Positions 10,071 through 28,459 of a stretch of 32,428 nucleotides of DNA are shown one piece after another. Location: positions 1 through 32,428 of IMG/VR virus record IMGVR_UViG_3300042924_005081. One strand, given 5' to 3'. The stretch is from a virus. The translations under genes were made by a program, and so were the position numbers. The first letter of the stretch is position 1, and every line of letters starts with the position of its first letter. The notes under the pieces are model-generated. The model was not told where the DNA came from. It worked only from the letters and a program-made list of their open reading frames with translations, and searched no databases.

Positions 10071-10101
10071 GCAGGCGGCGGAAATGTCAAACAGTTATTC
10101 G

Positions 10102-10174
10102 TTGCAGGGGGCGGATTTGAACCGCCGCATGGTAGGGTATGAGCCTACTGACTTAACCGCTTGTCGACCCTGCA
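10102..10174 (-). tRNA. tRNA with anticodon CAU (Met, or Ile if the C is modified)
   Basis: A full 73-nt cloverleaf reads on the minus strand: acceptor TGCAGGG/CCCTGCA (7 bp), D stem GAC/GTC with loop containing GCGGTTA, anticodon stem GTAGG/CCTAC with loop CTCATAC (anticodon CAT), 5-nt variable loop, T stem GGCGG/CCGCC with loop TTCAAAT, discriminator A. CCA is not encoded. U1-A72 is paired, unlike the initiator tRNA mismatch, so an elongator Met or a tRNA-Ile2 is more likely. It sits in the 105-nt gap between the gpW-like gene and the portal gene and would be cut from the structural transcript. Confidence 0.88.
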
Positions 10175-10610: not shown

Positions 10611-11149
10611 AGGCCGAACTCCGTTTTCAACTGCACGGCCAAACGCGCGAGACGGTCGAACTCATAAAGGAAGTCTTTTGCCGCATCGCGGCTCCACTCG
10701 GACGGGAGGCGATAGACCGTGCGAAAAGACAGCGAGAATGGCGGCTTGTCCTTGTCGCCCTCGCCGTCTTCTTGCTTTGGTTCGCCCTCTGGCAGCACGC
10801 CTGCCGTTTTGTATGCGTCCTGCAAGCCCTTCGGATTGGATTGCAAAAGTTGATTTAAATCTACTTTTGCGAGCTTCATCCATTTCAGCATCGTGTGGTA
10901 TCCGCGATCCCCGGAGTTTTCCTCCAGCCAATCCTTGAATGTTCCATGCGGAACAATTTCCTTCGCGTGGTTGCAGATTGCCCCGGCGTTCCACGCATGG
11001 CGGATTGCGATTTCCGCGCAGCCCTGCGCCATCGCCGCGCACTTGTCGGCCTCCTCCGCGCAGCGTTTTAGCTCTGCGGCACAAGTGTCTGCATCAATGC
11101 AGATCGCAAGGTCGAGAGACGGCTGTATGAGTTGTAGTTCGTTTTGCAT
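10607..11149 (-). CDS. DUF3102-like phage protein
   Basis: 180 residues. The central part (about residues 45-95) with WNAGAICNHAKEIVPHGTF, then WLEENSG and YHTMLKWMKLAK resembles DUF3102-type proteins, which share a short helical region with growth-inhibition and ParB-like contexts. An N-terminal Cys-rich helix (CAAELKRCAEEADKCAAMA) precedes it. The C-terminal half has an acidic linker (PEGEPKQEDGEG) and a helix. The start codon follows a copy of the recurring leader element (11152-11162). It overlaps the upstream HTH gene by 82 nt. Function unknown; likely DNA-associated or regulatory. Confidence 0.75.
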   Translation of the reverse strand: MQNELQLIQPSLDLAICIDADTCAAELKRCAEEADKCAAMAQGCAEIAIRHAWNAGAICNHAKEIVPHGTFKDWLEENSGDRGYHTMLKWMKLAKVDLNQLLQSNPKGLQDAYKTAGVLPEGEPKQEDGEGDKDKPPFSLSFRTVYRLPSEWSRDAAKDFLYEFDRLARLAVQLKTEFGL

Positions 11150-11766
11150 TTGTTCTGTGTTTCTTTTCTTTGGTTGTGGACTTGTGTTGCCCGTTGTCTA
11201 TAGACCTCGACCGCGCGGTCTGACTTCATTCCGCGCGACTGCCGCAGGTCAAATTTGCGTTTGTATTGCCGCACCGTGGCGCTGACGTTTGCTCTCGTGT
11301 AGCCGAACTTCTCGGCAATCTGCGTCTCGGTCATGCGCGTGCGGCCAAGGGCAAACAGGAGCGCGTAGCCATGCATGGCAATTTGCCGCGCCGAGGCCCG
11401 CACATATCCCCCCTCGCCCATAAGCGTCCCGGTCACGGTCTGCAAAATGATGAGCGCGGCATCCTCGCCCCGCGCGCAGGAACCCGGATCGTTTTCCTGC
11501 TCCATCCATTCGGCGGCTCCGATTTCCACGCCGCTGCGAATGACCCCTTGCAGGTAAATCAAGATGGTGTCGATGCCCGCGCCTTTGGCAATTAGCGCGG
11601 CCATGTCACCGCGCATCTGCTCGCGGAATTGTCCAATCCCGTCGAGGCAGTAATCCGACAGCGCATCCTTCGGCAACTCTGGCCCAACGCGGTAATCGTC
11701 GAGCGGGTTGGCGTGATGCGCGAGTTGATCGTCTATGCGTTTAGCGTCTGGTGAATCGTGGCCCAT
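11068..11766 (-). CDS. HTH protein upstream of the head operon
   Basis: About 232 residues from ATG at 11766; a GTG at 11775 would add three. A C-terminal helix-turn-helix is clear: MTETQIAEKFGYTRANVSAT, followed by a basic segment with SRGMKS, as in sigma-like or terminase-small-subunit-like DNA-binding proteins. The N-terminal and middle regions are mixed helical. It is the first gene after a strong terminator and its own promoter candidate, at the head of the portal-capsid-tail transcript, so an activator of late genes or a DNA-packaging accessory protein are both possible. No Shine-Dalgarno sequence. Confidence 0.75.
   Translation of the reverse strand: MGHDSPDAKRIDDQLAHHANPLDDYRVGPELPKDALSDYCLDGIGQFREQMRGDMAALIAKGAGIDTILIYLQGVIRSGVEIGAAEWMEQENDPGSCARGEDAALIILQTVTGTLMGEGGYVRASARQIAMHGYALLFALGRTRMTETQIAEKFGYTRANVSATVRQYKRKFDLRQSRGMKSDRAVEVYRQRATQVHNQRKETQNKCKTNYNSYSRLSTLRSALMQTLVPQS
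11152..11162 (-). repeat. Start-associated element, variant copy
   Basis: Minus-strand AAACACAGAAC, one mismatch to GAACACAGAAC, ending two bases before the ATG of the DUF3102-like gene (11149). Confidence 0.8.
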
Positions 11767-11805
11767 TACGGCCACGCGGGCGAGGCGTGAATCTCATCGG
11801 TGCGG

Positions 11806-16827: not shown

Positions 16828-16957
16828 GGCTTAACAAATCGCGCAGTGCGTTGCGCTGGCGTTCCAGTTCGCGCGCAAAGTCGGCGTCAACCACTTCGCC
16901 GCCTTGCCCGGCAAAAGGTTCAAAAGCAACGGCATCAGTGTCGGGCGTGTCCGTCAT
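16805..16957 (-). CDS. Small acidic protein upstream of terL (50 aa)
   Basis: MTDTPDTDAVAFEPFAGQGG, then a helix (ADFARELERQRNALRDLLSH). The ATG overlaps the stop of the Mom-like gene (ATGA), and the frame overlaps the terL start by 23 nt, so it is locked into the packaging operon. Acidic N-terminus and a single helix suggest a small partner of terminase or of the modification proteins. Family not recognised. Confidence 0.65.
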   Translation of the reverse strand: MTDTPDTDAVAFEPFAGQGGEVVDADFARELERQRNALRDLLSHDAHRTT

Positions 16958-17646
16958 GTCGCTTGAGAGTGGAGCGCCAGGGTCGGTGTCGAGCCGCCCT
17001 CTCCGGGATGGAATCCCGGCGTGTCCTTGGTGTCACTTCTGGCGCGTTTTGGGTATGGCCGCGCGAGCGGCAAAATCTTGCTTCGCATTTCAGTGTCAAA
17101 CGGCATGAGGTAACGATGTTTTCCGGGCATTAACACGGCAGTCGCTCTTGGGTCAATTTGCCGGGCTCCGCTCAAGTTTTGCACGTAGCCCGCTGATCCA
17201 ATAGTGCGCGGATGCGTCATCTTGCCTTTGATTTTGTAAAACGTGGCGGGTTGTCCGCTTCCGGTATATATCCAGTTGCCAGCTTGATAAATGCCTCCGT
17301 GATGACCTTGCGATTGATCCGCGAATGACACTACCAGCCGCAAACGCGGGTTGCTTTTCTTTAGAAATTTTATGGACAGCGCAACAATCCGCGACACCGG
17401 GGCGATGTGTCGCGTAAGGGCTACCCGCACCAATTCACAGCACGCGTCTTGGTTTAGTCCGTATGGTTTTCCAAGGTTTGGTGTTGCGCCTCTGGCAAAT
17501 AAAACTGCGCCAATAAATTTATCATTTTCCCACGCCCCCACTTTGACCAGTTTCCCCGCTGGTAAGCATTTGCTGTAATGCCAATTCAGCACTGCATACT
17601 TTGCAGCTTCATGTGTCGCCCAATCAACGCGCAAAATTGACTTCAT
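16954..17646 (-). CDS. mom: Mom-type adenine modification protein (copy 2)
   Basis: 230 residues. It contains the features I recognise from phage Mu Mom-like proteins: VDWATHEAAKYAVLNWHYSK (7-26), then LPAGKLVKVGAWENDKFIGA, LFARGA, CELVRVALTRHIAPVSRIVA, FLKK, VVSFADQSQGHHGGIYQAGN and WIYTG. Mom proteins (GNAT-like fold) convert adenine in DNA to N6-carbamoylmethyl-adenine and so block restriction enzymes. It is about 60% identical, by eye, to the gene just upstream, with a different C-terminal tail (SDTKDTPGFHPGEGGS). ATGA overlap with both neighbours. Confidence 0.88.
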   Translation of the reverse strand: MKSILRVDWATHEAAKYAVLNWHYSKCLPAGKLVKVGAWENDKFIGAVLFARGATPNLGKPYGLNQDACCELVRVALTRHIAPVSRIVALSIKFLKKSNPRLRLVVSFADQSQGHHGGIYQAGNWIYTGSGQPATFYKIKGKMTHPRTIGSAGYVQNLSGARQIDPRATAVLMPGKHRYLMPFDTEMRSKILPLARPYPKRARSDTKDTPGFHPGEGGSTPTLALHSQAT

Positions 17647-18275
17647 GCTGTGGCGTCTTTTTTAGGATACGGCTTTTGCAATGGCGCAACGCGCTTTCGC
17701 ATTTCAGCGCACAAGGGCATGAGGTAAATGTGCTTCCACTCAACCGGGGCCCAATCAACGCGAAGCCCCGTCTTTGCTGCGATGATTTGAGGTGATGCTG
17801 TTCCCCATTTTGCGTGTGCGCTTCGCTTGTGTGTAAAGACGCCGTTGACAATAAGCTCACGCTGCGCCTGTGATCTGCCAGCGTATGTCCAGTTGCCAGC
17901 TTGATAAATTCCCCCGTGGTGGCCTTGCTTGGGGTCTGCATAACTTACAATGAGGCGAAGACCGTCACTCATGCGCTTCAGAAACTTTATTGCGAGCGCA
18001 ACAATCCGTGACACCGGGGCCGCGTGCTTACATAGGGCAACGCGCACAAGCTCGGCGGCCTGATCTTGGCGCAGCCCGTAGGCTTGTGCCATGCGGTTGT
18101 TTGCGCCCCGTCCAAACAGAACAGCGCCGATAAACTTGCCGTTTTCCCACGCACCAACTTTTACCAATTTGCCAGCTGGTAAGCATTCGCTGTAATGCCA
18201 ATGCTCACACGCATAGCGCGCAGCGTCATGCGTTGCCCAATCAATCTTGAGGTCACATTTGCTCACGGGCATCAA
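17643..18275 (-). CDS. mom: Mom-type adenine modification protein (copy 1)
   Basis: 210 residues, tandem paralogue of the next gene. Shared segments include WHYSECLPAGKLVKVGAWEN, AVLFGRGA, AELVRVALCKHAAPVSRIVA, IKFLKR, VSYADPKQGHHGGIYQAGNW and the C-terminal YLMPLCAEMRKRVAPLQKPY. The region after about residue 140 differs strongly between the two, which could give different sequence preference. It overlaps the ParB-like gene by 23 nt and the second Mom gene by ATGA. Two adjacent starts (ATG ATG at 18275). Confidence 0.88.
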   Translation of the reverse strand: MMPVSKCDLKIDWATHDAARYACEHWHYSECLPAGKLVKVGAWENGKFIGAVLFGRGANNRMAQAYGLRQDQAAELVRVALCKHAAPVSRIVALAIKFLKRMSDGLRLIVSYADPKQGHHGGIYQAGNWTYAGRSQAQRELIVNGVFTHKRSAHAKWGTASPQIIAAKTGLRVDWAPVEWKHIYLMPLCAEMRKRVAPLQKPYPKKDATA

Positions 18276-20711: not shown

Positions 20712-21586
20712 GCCGCCTCCTTTTCCGAAAGCGCAAGTTTGCGGTTCAACTCTTGCGCTGTTGCCCGCAGCGTCTTAACTCTCGCCGCCGCGTTCGGGGC
20801 CATTGTGCTTTCCCAAGGTTTCTCCGGGTCAGGAATCCGATTCCGTCTGTCCGCTCGGATGCCCTCTATTTCGCGCGTAATGGCCTCCAGACGCTGTTTG
20901 ATTGCCCAAGGAGTCTCGGTCTTCCCGTTTGGCCCGTTGTGCGTCTTGGTGATGACGCCGCCCCGGCGACTTTTCATCTGCAAGGCGCGGGCGCTCATGT
21001 TCGCCTGCCATTTCGCAATCGGGTTGCCGCGATAGTCCGTCCATCGTCCATCCGGGGCGATGGGCCTGCTTTCGTTGTCGTGCCAGATTTCCTCGGCAAT
21101 CTCCCGCTCAATCCCTGCTTGCCTCCCCGTCTCTATAAATTCCTCCAAGGTGGGGGTCTGGAAAACCATATGGTTTCCATTTGGTTTGCATATAGGTGAA
21201 GAGGAAGAGGAAGAGGATGTATTAATAAGGTTAGTAGAAGAAGGGGCGGCGTCTTTCGTGGGCCTGCCTCCCTTTCTCCCGATTTCCCAAAGGCGGATAA
21301 TCTGCGCTTGGTGCTCGGCGTATCCGTGCAGCGACCACGTTCCATCCTCTGCCCCGTCCAGCCACGGCGCGGTGGAGTCGGTCATCGTCTGCCACAGCAA
21401 GGACTCGTCGCCCGGATATTCCATTACGGCGGCGAGCTTGGGCGGGTTAAGGACAAGGCCTGTGTATTGCCGCTTGATCTTGGCCTGCCCCCACAAGCGG
21501 AGCAGGCCCAAGACCGCCTCGGCCCCGCAAATGCGGTGCAGGCGCTTTGTTTTCCAGTGATCGCAGAAGCTTGGCTCAATCTTCAT
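20708..21586 (-). CDS. Putative phage replication initiation protein
   Basis: 292 residues from ATG at 21586 (ATGA overlap). The N-terminal domain (MKIEPSFCDHWKTKRLHRIC, VLGLLRLWGQAKIKRQYTG, WSLHGYAEHQAQIIRLWEIG) is a winged-helix-like region seen in phage replisome organisers. Then comes a Thr/Ser-rich linker (poly-Ser near residue 125-140) and a C-terminal region with IWHDNESRPIAPDGRWTDYR and WQANMSARALQ, a typical end for proteins recruiting helicase loaders. No helicase gene is seen nearby, so it would use the host helicase. Assignment by pattern, moderate. Confidence 0.65.
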   Translation of the reverse strand: MKIEPSFCDHWKTKRLHRICGAEAVLGLLRLWGQAKIKRQYTGLVLNPPKLAAVMEYPGDESLLWQTMTDSTAPWLDGAEDGTWSLHGYAEHQAQIIRLWEIGRKGGRPTKDAAPSSTNLINTSSSSSSSPICKPNGNHMVFQTPTLEEFIETGRQAGIEREIAEEIWHDNESRPIAPDGRWTDYRGNPIAKWQANMSARALQMKSRRGGVITKTHNGPNGKTETPWAIKQRLEAITREIEGIRADRRNRIPDPEKPWESTMAPNAAARVKTLRATAQELNRKLALSEKEAA

Positions 21587-21825
21587 AGCGAGTATTCGGC
21601 GATCCGCTTGCCGCTGGCCGTCTCGACCGTGCGCTCCACGATTGCCCAACCTTCCCGCCGCAACTCATGGACGCGCGCAGCCAGACGGAAGCATCCGAAT
21701 AGCTCCAGCGCGTCGAGCGGGGTAAGCCGATGACCCTCCTGCAAGAAACGCAGGATGCGGCCCGCTTGTGTCGGGCGCTTGTGCGTCTCGGCAGGCGCAA
21801 ACGTCAGTTCGGGTTGCCATGTCAC
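21583..21825 (-). CDS. Helix-turn-helix protein of the HTH_39 type
   Basis: 80 residues from GTG at 21825, which has GGGAGGG about 4 nt upstream and overlaps the upstream stop. Sequence THKRPTQAGRILRFLQEGHR, LTPLDALELFGCFRLAARVH, ELRREGWAI matches the short winged-HTH domain found in many phages (HTH_39-like). Likely a DNA-binding regulator or replication accessory, encoded just before the replication protein. Confidence 0.75.
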   Translation of the reverse strand: MTWQPELTFAPAETHKRPTQAGRILRFLQEGHRLTPLDALELFGCFRLAARVHELRREGWAIVERTVETASGKRIAEYSL

Positions 21826-22001
21826 GGTTCCCTCCCTCCTGCCCGCAGTTTTTCGGTTGCCTCGATCAGCGCGCGGCTGGTCGATTCCAGTTCCCACGCC
21901 AACCGCTCGCAATGCTCCTTGAGCCAATCCATGTGCGAGGCAATGCGTGTGTCATCCTCCGGGGCAAGGCCGTCACAGATGCGGCGTTGAGTTGCGTTCA
22001 T
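21822..22001 (-). CDS. Small hypothetical early protein (59 aa)
   Basis: MNATQRRICDGLAPEDDTRI followed by a helical region (MDWLKEHCERLAWELESTSR, ALIEATEKLRAG) of coiled-coil type. Overlaps both neighbours by 4 nt (ATGA and GTGA). Not recognised; likely a structural or partner peptide. Confidence 0.65.
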   Translation of the reverse strand: MNATQRRICDGLAPEDDTRIASHMDWLKEHCERLAWELESTSRALIEATEKLRAGGREP

Positions 22002-25510: not shown

Positions 25511-25521
25511 GTTCTGTGTTC
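25511..25521 (-). repeat. Start-associated element between the early genes
   Basis: Exact GAACACAGAAC on the minus strand, overlapping the stop of the ribbon-helix-helix gene (25520-25522) and 13 nt before the next ATG. Confidence 0.8.
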
Positions 25522-25690
25522 ACTGCTCTGCCGCGCCGTTAAGGCGTTGCATGAGCAAAAGACGGACGAAAAGCGAAAGGCTCATCCCCTGCGCGAAAGC
25601 GACCTTGCGAGCTTCGCGGATGATGTCCGGGGGGAGGGAAATGCCAGCGGGTTTGCTGTGCTTGTGCTGTGGGATTTTACGGCGCGCCAT
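25520..25690 (-). CDS. Ribbon-helix-helix regulator, first early gene (56 aa)
   Basis: MARRKIPQHKHSKPAGISLP, then PDIIREARKVAFAQGMSLSL and FVRLLLMQRL. Layout of Arc/CopG proteins: a short beta strand (GISLP), helix A (PDIIREARKVAFAQ), a turn with Gly35, helix B (SLSLFVRLLLMQRL). It aligns with the divergent plus-strand protein: KPAGISLPPDII against QPAGIALPRDLI, and helix B SLSLFVRLLLMQRL against LSGLTRHLLTTYL. It should bind DNA as a dimer through the strands. First gene of the early minus transcript, opposite its paralogue. Confidence 0.85.
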   Translation of the reverse strand: MARRKIPQHKHSKPAGISLPPDIIREARKVAFAQGMSLSLFVRLLLMQRLNGAAEQ

Positions 25691-25712
25691 AGGTAATATG
25701 GGCGCATCTTCT

Positions 25713-25729
25713 AAAGTTTAACAAACTTT
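25713..25729. promoter_or_regulatory. Palindrome in the switch region
   Basis: AAAGTTT-AAC-AAACTTT, 7-bp perfect arms, between the two divergent regulator genes. It overlaps a minus-strand TTTACA (25734-25729) that could be the -35 of the early promoter. The natural operator candidate for either ribbon-helix-helix protein. Confidence 0.65.
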
Positions 25730-25742
25730 GTAAAGGACAAAA

Positions 25743-25760
25743 ATGGGGTATTCCCCCCAT
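25743..25760. promoter_or_regulatory. Second inverted repeat in the switch region
   Basis: ATGGGG-TATTCC-CCCCAT, 6-bp arms. Part of it (GGGGTATTC, 25745-25753) recurs ahead of the integrase and, with one change, ahead of the metallophosphoesterase operon, suggesting a shared control site for plus-strand genes. Confidence 0.55.
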
Positions 25761-25770
25761 ACAAATAAAA

Positions 25771-25800
25771 TTGTTAAGAATTGCAAAAGTGTGCTATTTT
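25771..25800 (+). promoter_or_regulatory. Promoter candidate for the plus-strand regulator
   Basis: TTGTTA (25771-25776), 18-bp spacer, TATTTT (25795-25800), 22 nt before the ATG at 25823. AT-rich surroundings in a GC-rich genome support it. Confidence 0.5.
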
Positions 25801-25822
25801 ACCGGGGTAGCTCACTACGCAC

Positions 25823-26086
25823 ATGAACACACGAAAGACGGACGGGGAGAAGTCTCAGCCCGCAGGCATTGCCCTGCCCCGCGACTTAATCGAGGTCGGG
25901 CGGGAATACGCCAAGCGGCACGGGTATGGTGGCCTTAGCGGCCTTACGCGCCATTTGCTGACCACTTACTTGGCAAAGGCTGCACAGGCTGCGGAGGACG
26001 CGAGCCAAGCAACCAAGACCAAGGGCAAGAGAAAGGTAAGCAACGCCCGCCGCAAACTCGGCAAAGCCCGAAAGAATGAGGAATGA
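25823..26086 (+). CDS. Ribbon-helix-helix regulator, plus-strand (87 aa)
   Basis: MNTRKTDGEKSQPAGIALPR, then DLIEVGREYAKRHGYGGLSG and LTRHLLTTYLAKAAQ, the strand-helix-turn-helix pattern of Arc/CopG-type proteins and a paralogue of the divergent minus-strand protein. A basic C-terminal tail (KGKRKVSNARRKLGKARKN) is extra and could add nonspecific DNA contact. In the place where a lysogeny repressor would be, facing the early genes and just before the integrase. Its role as the lysogeny repressor is inference. Confidence 0.85.
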   Translation: MNTRKTDGEKSQPAGIALPRDLIEVGREYAKRHGYGGLSGLTRHLLTTYLAKAAQAAEDASQATKTKGKRKVSNARRKLGKARKNEE

Positions 26087-26097
26087 TTTTTTCATGT

Positions 26098-26116
26098 GGG
26101 GTATTCATATTGAGCG
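26098..26116 (+). repeat. 19-bp element, copy 1 (before integrase)
   Basis: GGGGTATTCATATTGAGCG, 51 nt before the integrase ATG. 18 of 19 bases match the copy at 27345-27363. The remaining bases of the 26087-26167 gap show no gene. Confidence 0.85.
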
Positions 26117-26167: not shown

Positions 26168-27229
26168 ATGAATATCGAGACGGTCAAGGTGGGCGGAATG
26201 TCCTGCCGCCTTTGGCAGTCTCCCGGTGACGGACGGTGGCGGTGGCACTCCCGCCGTGGTGGCAAGCGGGTTCTTAATGCGGCGAAGGATTTGACCAAGG
26301 CCAAGGCCAAGGCTCGCGAACAACTCGCCCTCCTGCGAGACGGGCGCAGCCAGTTGGGCAGCCTTGACCCCGCCCTGCTCTCCGAGTTCCTTGCGTGGAA
26401 AGGCCAGCGCGCCGATAGCCCCCCGACCGCCGAGGCCGCACGCAATTACGTCCGTCACCTCATCGAGCGAAAGGTTCAGACCCGCACCATCGAGGGCGAC
26501 CTTGCACACTTTACCGCGAAGCACCCCGGCCCGATTGCCGATGTGACCGCCGCGCAAGTCAAGCTGCACCTTGACTCACTGGGGGTCGGGCCTCGTCGCT
26601 ACAACAACGTCCGGGCAACCCTTGTCTCGTGGTTTGTCTGGGCGCGCAAGCAGTCTTACTTGCCCGACACGATGACCGCACCGCAACGCACTCATGCCTT
26701 GCCCGTTCCGAAAAAGCGTCCCGCCATTTATTCCCCCGCCGAGTTCCGCGCCTTGCTTGCCGCCGTTGCCCCGGAATGGCGGCTCCCGCTGGCGATCTGC
26801 GGTTTGGCGGGGCTGCGGACTTGCGAGGCGGAAAGGTTGCTGTGGCGCGAAGTGAAGCTCGGTAAGAAGTTGCTTGAGGTTCTACCGGAAAACGCAAAGA
26901 ACACGGGTCGCCGCAGGCTTGTGCCGATCCATCCCGCCTTGATGACTTGGCTCCGCAAAGCGGACTTCGCCCCGAACGATCACGTTTGCCCGCAGGGGTT
27001 GAGGATCGACAACCTCGCCAAGCGCGTAAAGCGCAAGGGGGTTAAATGGGTTAAGAACGGGCTGCGACATTCTTACGGCTCCTATCGCTGCGCGGTCGTG
27101 AAGTCCGCCGCGCAAGTCGCTTTGGAGATGGGCAATAGCGAGTCGATCGTGCGGTCAAATTACCTCGATTACGTCGAAAGAACGGCGGCAACAAAGTGGT
27201 TTCAATGTGGTTACTTTCCGTCCTCCTAA
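26168..27229 (+). CDS. int: Tyrosine integrase
   Basis: 353 residues. N-terminal arm-type/core-binding region (to about 175) and catalytic domain: Arg217 (GLAGLRTCEAERL), Lys244 (ENAKNTGRRRLVPIHP), Arg300 with His301 (KNGLRHSYGSYR), Asn323 (ALEMGNSESI) and nucleophile Tyr332 (SNYLDYV). The usual HxxR His is Asn297, and the usual second His/Trp is Asn323; both substitutions I remember from Verrucomicrobia-type integrases. It recombines attP with a host tRNA gene; the attP candidate lies just downstream. The ATG is 51 nt past a 19-bp element. Confidence 0.93.
   Translation: MNIETVKVGGMSCRLWQSPGDGRWRWHSRRGGKRVLNAAKDLTKAKAKAREQLALLRDGRSQLGSLDPALLSEFLAWKGQRADSPPTAEAARNYVRHLIERKVQTRTIEGDLAHFTAKHPGPIADVTAAQVKLHLDSLGVGPRRYNNVRATLVSWFVWARKQSYLPDTMTAPQRTHALPVPKKRPAIYSPAEFRALLAAVAPEWRLPLAICGLAGLRTCEAERLLWREVKLGKKLLEVLPENAKNTGRRRLVPIHPALMTWLRKADFAPNDHVCPQGLRIDNLAKRVKRKGVKWVKNGLRHSYGSYRCAVVKSAAQVALEMGNSESIVRSNYLDYVERTAATKWFQCGYFPSS
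27207..27218 (+). repeat. attP arm-site candidate, left
   Basis: GTGGTTACTTTC within the last codons of int, 47 nt from the tRNA-Leu segment. An identical 12-mer is at 27372-27383; a shorter copy (TGGTTACTA) follows it at 27384. Confidence 0.65.
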
Positions 27230-27264: not shown

Positions 27265-27325
27265 TACCGGCGGAGGGGGTCGAACCCACACTCCCTTGCG
27301 GGAAACGGATTTTGAGTCCGTCGCG
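27265..27325 (-). other. attP core candidate: 3' part of a tRNA-Leu(CAA) gene
   Basis: Minus strand: anticodon stem-loop ACGGA-CTCAAAA-TCCGT (27321-27305, anticodon CAA), variable arm CCC-GCAA-GGG, T arm GTGGG-TTCGACC-CCCTC, acceptor half CGCCGGT with A73 at 27265. The 5' half of a tRNA is missing. One T-stem pair is broken (T against T), which suggests that identity to the host gene ends nearby. Temperate phages use such fragments to rebuild the tRNA on integration, and this lies 36 nt after int. Confidence 0.8.
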
Positions 27326-27437: not shown

Positions 27438-28178
27438 ATGGCAGCGATTACGCGGCGGTGGAAAAAGTGGATGGCGGTCAGTTGCACGCACGGTCATTTA
27501 GCAGACCCAAGGGCCACCGGGGCAATGCTCAAATTCCGCGAGGCATACAAGCCCGCAACCGTCCTGCATCTCGGCGACTTTACCGATATGGCTGCGCTTC
27601 GTGCCGGGGCAAGGCGTGATCCCGATGACCCCGACCGCGCGGAAAGCATGGCCGATGACCTGCTTGCGGGATTGAGCTTCTTGCGAGAGTTGGCACCTTC
27701 CGTGATTCACCTCGGAAATCACGAGGACAGGCTTTGCGGCCTCGCGCATAGCGGCAACGCGGTCGTGAGCTACGCGGCGGGACAAGTGCTTGGGAAGATC
27801 GAAGACGCTGCTAAGAAAATGAAAGCGAAGGTCGTTCCTTATGCTGGCCTGCGCCCGGAGGCTTGCACGCAGTTGGGCGATACGCTGTTTCTGCATGGCG
27901 TCCTTTACAACGTGTCCGCTGCCCGCGATCACGCGGAAGCCCTCGGCATGAATTGCGTGTTCGGGCATACGCATCGCGTGATGCAGGAGGCTGGCCGATG
28001 CCAGCGCCCCGTTGTCGGTTACAACATCGGCTGCGGCGTTGATCTGGCTGTCGGGTATGCAAAATCTCGACGCGCCACCTTGGGATGGGCGCACGGCTTC
28101 GCCTACGGCGAATACTGCGACAACGCCTGCACGGTCAACCTCGTCACACTTTCTCCCCATTACAGGCTCCCGCTATGA
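27438..28178 (+). CDS. Calcineurin-like metallophosphoesterase
   Basis: 246 residues from ATG at 27438. Metal-site motifs: THGH (17-20), GDFTD (46-50), GNHEDR (93-98), FLHG (His153), GHTHR (176-180). The first motif has Cys16 (SCTHGH) where an Asp is usual, so metal binding may be altered. Families with this pattern occur on many phages as unnamed phosphoesterases. Substrate unknown (nucleotide, nucleic acid end or phosphoprotein). First gene of a coupled plus-strand operon next to attP. Confidence 0.88.
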   Translation: MAAITRRWKKWMAVSCTHGHLADPRATGAMLKFREAYKPATVLHLGDFTDMAALRAGARRDPDDPDRAESMADDLLAGLSFLRELAPSVIHLGNHEDRLCGLAHSGNAVVSYAAGQVLGKIEDAAKKMKAKVVPYAGLRPEACTQLGDTLFLHGVLYNVSAARDHAEALGMNCVFGHTHRVMQEAGRCQRPVVGYNIGCGVDLAVGYAKSRRATLGWAHGFAYGEYCDNACTVNLVTLSPHYRLPL

Positions 28179-28459
28179 AGTCGCGGCTCTCAACCACAAA
28201 GGGTGGCGGCAATTTGCCCCCCTCCCTTGATCCCGATCTCGCCAAGTGGTGCGCGGCCCTTGCCTCGCCTGCCGTGACGGACGTAGTTCCGCCCGGCTGG
28301 TTCACCACCAAACAACTTGCCGACAAACTAAACCGGACGCGCCCCACAATGGCCCGACTGCTTGCTGATGCCGTAGCGGCTGGCCGCTGCGAGGTTCAGA
28401 AATTTCGCGTTAGCGTGGGCAGTTTTTCGCGTGCGACTCCGCACTACCGACCGCGATGA
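28175..28459 (+). CDS. Winged-helix-type DNA-binding protein (94 aa)
   Basis: From ATG at 28175 (ATGA overlap): MKSRLSTTKGGGNLPPSLDP, then a helix-turn-helix (GWFTTKQLADKLNRTRPTMA, RLLADAVAAGRCEVQKFRV) and a strand end. The first 20 residues coincide with a GC-rich imperfect hairpin in the DNA (28199-28228) resembling the terminator at 28948-28977. Likely regulator of this operon or of the prophage. Confidence 0.8.
   Translation: MKSRLSTTKGGGNLPPSLDPDLAKWCAALASPAVTDVVPPGWFTTKQLADKLNRTRPTMARLLADAVAAGRCEVQKFRVSVGSFSRATPHYRPR

Follow-up and report, generated by a model that had tools for sequence, protein, structure and literature searches.

A candidate lysis-lysogeny switch formed by two divergent ribbon-helix-helix paralogs in a group of uncultured temperate phages

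The divergent gene pair and its surroundings

The window analysed here comprises all 32,428 bases of one IMG/VR virus record (IMGVR_UViG_3300042924_005081), and the locus under study is a pair of short divergent genes, A and B (Table 1). Structural genes, the terminase, and replication and recombination genes lie to the left of A; to its right follow, in order, B, a tyrosine integrase and a tRNA-Leu-like core. The integrase with the core behind it marks a phage equipped for integration. As an earlier note on this DNA had described, A heads the early transcript and B faces the integrase side: the leftward operon under A carries Erf, a RecE-like exonuclease, a RusA-like resolvase and replication genes, and B runs towards int. 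The immediate neighbours are int beyond B and a small membrane-type ORF beyond A. The 132-bp spacer between the two genes is AT-rich and located as claimed, with 38% GC against 58% for the window, and this AT-richness was reached by just 0.2% of 132-bp stretches.

Two further features of the window were observed outside this locus. Two adjoining Mom-like genes occupy 16954-18275; the one at 16957-17646 matched Pfam Mom with E = 5e-46 and the second resembles a copy, which may represent a DNA-modification gene in tandem duplicate. A tRNA-Met gene lies amid late genes at 10101-10174.

The Akkermansia phage Moulinsart was the only isolate matching the integrase, and it also gave the best terminase match, so that a host in the phylum Verrucomicrobiota may be named as a lead only. 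When genome contigs were scanned for an integrated prophage in a named host, one weak unrelated match was obtained.

Table 1. Genes, sites and predicted signals of the A-B locus (window coordinates)
Feature	Position	Strand	Description
A	25520-25690	-	56-aa ribbon-helix-helix (RHH) protein; first gene of the leftward early operon; proposed Cro-like regulator
Putative A promoter	25706-25734	-	-35 TTTACA (25734-25729), 17-bp spacer, weak -10 GAAGAT (25711-25706); read from sequence
O_A (predicted)	25712-25730		tandem TAAAGTTTA-A-CAAACTTTG: two YAANNNTTR dyads repeating every 10 bp, which take up the spacer between the -35 and -10 of the putative A promoter
Terminator-like hairpin	25739-25760	-	stem 25760-25743, then T5
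Putative B promoter	25771-25800	+	-35 TTGTTA (25771-25776), 18-bp spacer, -10 TATTTT (25795-25800)
O_B (predicted)	25775-25783		TAAGAATTG: one perfect YAANNNTTR dyad overlapping the putative B -35
B	25823-26086	+	RHH protein of 87 aa whose C-terminal tail is rich in Lys/Arg; lies ahead of int; proposed as the immunity repressor
Tyrosine integrase (int)	26168-27229	+	downstream of B; phrog_1 E = 7e-27
attP core	27267-27323		similar to a tRNA-Leu gene (3' part); follows int; almost identical among relatives

Fold, paralogy and conservation of A and B

The two open reading frames had been taken for divergent, paralogous RHH proteins, and this description held. A and B shared 43% identity over 51 aa (BLASTP, E = 5e-8), and profiles of the two families aligned with an hhalign probability of 99.2 (E = 1e-19). 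A profile built from B alone matched A in all 23 pair-carrying records searched (E from 1e-14 to 1e-17), always at exactly two places per record, B and A; in five sister records, some with other RHH genes, it found no match. Since this profile is silent on other RHH genes, the likeness between A and B is closer than that among RHH proteins at large. Neither protein scored above cut-off against curated RHH families, where sub-threshold Pfam matches only (DUF6364, CopG_antitoxin, NikA-like, RHH_1) were seen, and phage and plasmid collections yielded no convincing relative of either.

Structure prediction agreed with the assignment. The A profile matched Arc (E = 1e-3) and a CopG-family protein, and among solved structures in the PDB the A model matched Arc best and also CopG, FitA, AmrZ and PutA, all of them RHH; the best match of the B model, a weak one, was NikR. 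Helices were predicted at residues 21-33 and 38-55 of A and at 20-32 and 38-86 of B, each pair with an extended segment ahead. The extended N-terminus and two helices of an RHH protein were thus seen in both, whereas the short N-terminal strand itself is absent from the single-chain models; as the RHH strand pairs only in the dimer, it is expected to be missing from a monomer model. In the tail of B, 11 K/R face 4 D/E within 35 aa. The profile comparison, which might have revealed unrelated folds, instead placed A and B in the same fold and family, with A nearest to Arc.

Scans gave 35 A loci in viral records. A paralogous RHH gene is divergent from A in 34 related IMG/VR records, and the pair-carrying relatives fall into three diverged groups (window-like, L037-L045 and L046-L061). 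At one further A locus, L008 (IMGVR_UViG_3300042452_000558), the B-int segment is inverted: within positions 1-1700 the B promoter, B and a truncated int are turned round relative to all other relatives, and the junctions, in the spacer and at the int 3' end, carry an 8-bp inverted repeat (TTGGAACC/GGTTCCAA). This inversion may be a real event or an assembly join.

In the phylogenetic tree, for which few columns were available, the A sequences formed one clade (support 80/73) and a single B clade was not rejected (p-AU 0.36). The simplest reading of the tree favours a single old duplication, kept since as a divergent pair. A recent tandem duplication was rejected, because A forms one clade, and B possibly one, across all lineages.

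Predicted control sites and their covariation with the proteins

The perfect palindrome reported at 25713-25729 is present as 7+3+7, and we found it to be the visible part of the 19-bp tandem O_A. A perfect tandem YAANNNTTR pair occurs once in the window, at O_A, where 0.01 are expected. With a motif refined on the same data on which it was scored, 18 of the 19 distinct lineages had an A-side tandem that agreed at 11 or more of the 12 fixed positions. The mean score was 11.5, whereas dinucleotide shuffles averaged 7.7 and never exceeded a mean of 8.3; a dyad offset of 10 scored above 9 and 11-15. The A-side operator of L014 fits the rule poorly, its best score being 10/12 and at another place. 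On the B side, YAANNNTTR lies over the -35 in all 19 lineages; 10 bp further upstream, at 25765-25773, the window has a degenerate second dyad, which is perfect in many relatives. Hence the proposal of related operators for both proteins gained support, as predicted sites, from the unit present at both promoters, and the dyad symmetry would suit an RHH dimer placing its two-stranded sheet in the major groove. A role of the 25713-25729 palindrome as an RNA stem-loop was rejected, its folding being no better than that of shuffles.

The putative A promoter is weak by consensus and was missed by a sigma-70 scan of the window; every window-type relative retains its TTTACA. The B promoter can be recognised more clearly across lineages (TTGACA/TTGTYA, 16-18 bp, TAnnTT), with TTGACA as its -35 in the more distant groups. 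Its distance to the start codon is usually 6-10 nt, against 22 nt in the window, so that the B mRNA is predicted to be leaderless in most lineages, a likeness to lambda, where the cI mRNA from PRM is leaderless.

Between the promoters, the other inverted repeat reported earlier, 25743-25760, exists with its 6-bp arms, and an operator role for it did not stand. It shows no variation with A or B, and its T-run is always on one strand: TGGGG...CCCCA with a minus-strand T-run is kept in all groups. We regard it as probably a leftward terminator and not an operator; the fold in the window was no better than shuffles (z = -0.5). As a separate observation, TGGGGTATTC of this stem (25744-25753) reappears between B and int at 26097-26106 and is retained in several close relatives.

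Covariation of sites and proteins was assessed in 17 related lineages by partial correlation with within-group permutation. O_A followed B when A was held constant (partial r = 0.58, permutation p = 0.0014), and the correlation survived dropping any group (0.57-0.80); with A, given B, it was weaker (r = 0.38, p = 0.10). Two natural experiments gave the same picture. In the pair L037/L042, A is 95% alike, B 42%, O_A 58% and O_B 100%, and in L007/L014, A is 66% alike, B 98% and O_A 84%. Linkage alone would tie O_A to the neighbouring A; since O_A follows B instead, B is the likely reader of O_A. The correlation of O_B with A given B (r = 0.69, p = 0.08) was not significant within groups; most of it comes from the second group, the window's own group shows none of it, and for A as the reader of O_B it is suggestive only. 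That O_A tracks the sequence of B rather than of A suggests that B is probably the immunity repressor; A may, less surely, be its Cro-like partner. The idea that both copies compete for related operators therefore stood in part: the sites are related, and in place of plain competition the covariation suggests a division of labour.

The roles could also be reversed, with A as the maintenance repressor at both promoters and B as an anti-repressor or Cro-like protein that also aids integrase expression, and we consider this unlikely. Of the two proteins A is indeed the better conserved, as one might expect of a master regulator, its weak correlation with O_A points the same way, and autoregulation by A at O_A would be Arc-like. 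However, it is A that heads the early lytic operon and B that lies with or towards int, O_A goes with B and not A in both natural experiments, and the fast evolution usual for immunity determinants is seen in B.

Comparison of L014 with the window revealed 92-94% identity just left of A and 99% over the B tail, whereas from A through the spacer into the N-terminal half of B it fell to 55-66%. Such a profile points to exchange of A-spacer-B as an immunity cassette, a crossover having fallen within B. The sister phages L017, L019 and L022 (also L113 and the joined L024) have integrases 86-93% identical, and in the same slot L017, L019, L022, L024/L108 and L113 carry a FitA-like and a NikA/TacA-like RHH gene that face apart. 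The slot thus holds two divergent RHH genes even without recognisable protein kinship. This other pair was seen across the circular join of L024; the circular join of L016 was not trusted. The spacer of L019 has a palindrome of its own, TTTACCT...GGTTAACC...AGGTAAA. The L016/L107 (G027) contig stops at the Erf gene on one side and immediately upstream of int on the other, and has no switch region: either the assembly broke where the genomes vary, or the switch was deleted.

The proposed switch, its rivals and known systems

On balance we think it likely that the locus is the lysis-lysogeny switch of a temperate phage, made of two RHH paralogs from an old duplication, with B CI-like and A Cro-like. 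The paralogy, the conserved divergent layout, the operator rule, the covariation of O_A with B and the cassette swap were observed computationally; from these we infer dimer binding, repression, the two roles and bistability. Dimers of A and of B would both recognise the 9-bp dyad YAANNNTTR, and on tandem dyads 10 bp apart one dimer would lie next to another. B would bind O_A inside the A promoter and silence A together with the early lytic operon, as a CI-like repressor; A would probably bind O_B over the B -35 and silence B in the manner of Cro. The winner of this contest would keep the other gene off, and the leftward terminator between the promoters would stop stray read-through into the lytic operon. 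The suggestion that a lysogeny switch arose by duplication of one RHH protein is in this way supported computationally, with the duplication old rather than recent.

An HTH repressor gene controlling lysogeny from elsewhere would have spoken against this. Neither the CI-type HTH_3 family nor S24 rose above cut-off in any of 27 records (the window and 26 relatives), with positive controls. We hold it for somewhat less probable still than reversed roles that A and B are accessory regulators, like immI of P22, or an antitoxin-like pair, and that an unrecognised repressor, for example a winged-helix-like protein, acts from elsewhere. Arc and Mnt of P22 are exactly such an accessory pair, and winged-helix-like genes are present in the window at 11068-11775, 21583-21927 and 28085-28459; these are less likely lysogeny regulators, as they are located in other clusters (structural, replication or late). 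Moreover, no toxin family match was found among the near neighbours scanned, and scans of genes within the operon and next to it revealed no recognisable antirepressor gene. A and B occupy the usual CI/Cro place between int and the early operon, and it is A-spacer-B that cassette swapping targets.

It is most improbable that B serves chiefly as a recombination directionality factor or integrase cofactor and not as a repressor: B does precede int, with which it shares a strand, and its tail is basic, but in L043 and the third group A and B are unchanged beside a different integrase on the opposite strand, transcribed towards B, a Xis-like HTH gene adjoins A in L043 and L059, and the YAANNNTTR tandem sites stand at promoters. 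As A and B stay constant beside different integrases, the pair belongs to the switch and not to one integrase.

The lysogeny switches of textbooks use HTH repressors. In P22, two dimers of Arc or Mnt sit on half-sites about one helical turn apart, and work by Sauer in 1983 and Vershon in 1985-87 is reported to have found the arc and mnt genes divergent, with a shared control region. Arc and Mnt are two short RHH repressors about 40% alike (PMC7549136), and the antirepressor that they regulate belongs to a secondary immunity region situated as an insertion within the late operon (PMC2629481, PMC7549136). A and B are likewise paralogous divergent RHH proteins with related predicted operators, and given also the match of A to Arc, in profile and in structure, the earlier choice of Arc/Mnt as the nearest model was apt: they are the nearest pair by design. 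In contrast to A and B, for which no CI-type repressor was recognised in the records scanned, P22 has another repressor, c2, that holds lysogeny, and the position of A and B between int and the early operon is that of a primary switch. The RHH protein F55 of SSV1 has been described as a CI-like lysogeny repressor whose targets are tandem repeats lying over the early promoters and over the promoter of its own gene (PMC5569661). Unlike A and B, it is a single protein without a divergent paralogous opponent, and it works with archaeal promoters and another binding sequence. A primary switch of two RHH paralogs is covered by neither Arc/Mnt nor F55, and in the open-access literature we found no bacterial phage with an RHH pair as its primary switch.

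With lambda CI/Cro the predicted switch shares two divergent regulators of one fold, a shared operator region between the int side and the early operon, and immunity-cassette swapping. It differs in that A and B are RHH and not HTH proteins, and in its two-dyad operators against the three-site operators of lambda. As A and B contain no S24 domain, RecA-driven cleavage is not expected, and the induction of such a prophage becomes a testable question.

Collectively, and with rather less confidence than for the window itself, we lean towards an uncultured group of temperate phages that place the primary lysogeny decision on RHH-RHH switches: one lineage would use an ancient duplication sharing an operator rule, its sisters an unrelated pair, and the cassette would be exchanged as a unit to change immunity. 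If this is true, annotators could locate the switch in phages listed with an integrase but without a repressor. Such a switch, whose opponents would have diverged from a common fold of 50 residues and whose simple operator rule can be read in some 19 lineages, would be a compact and convenient system in which to study how the copies of one repressor come to act on each other after duplication, and how immunity alters its specificity.
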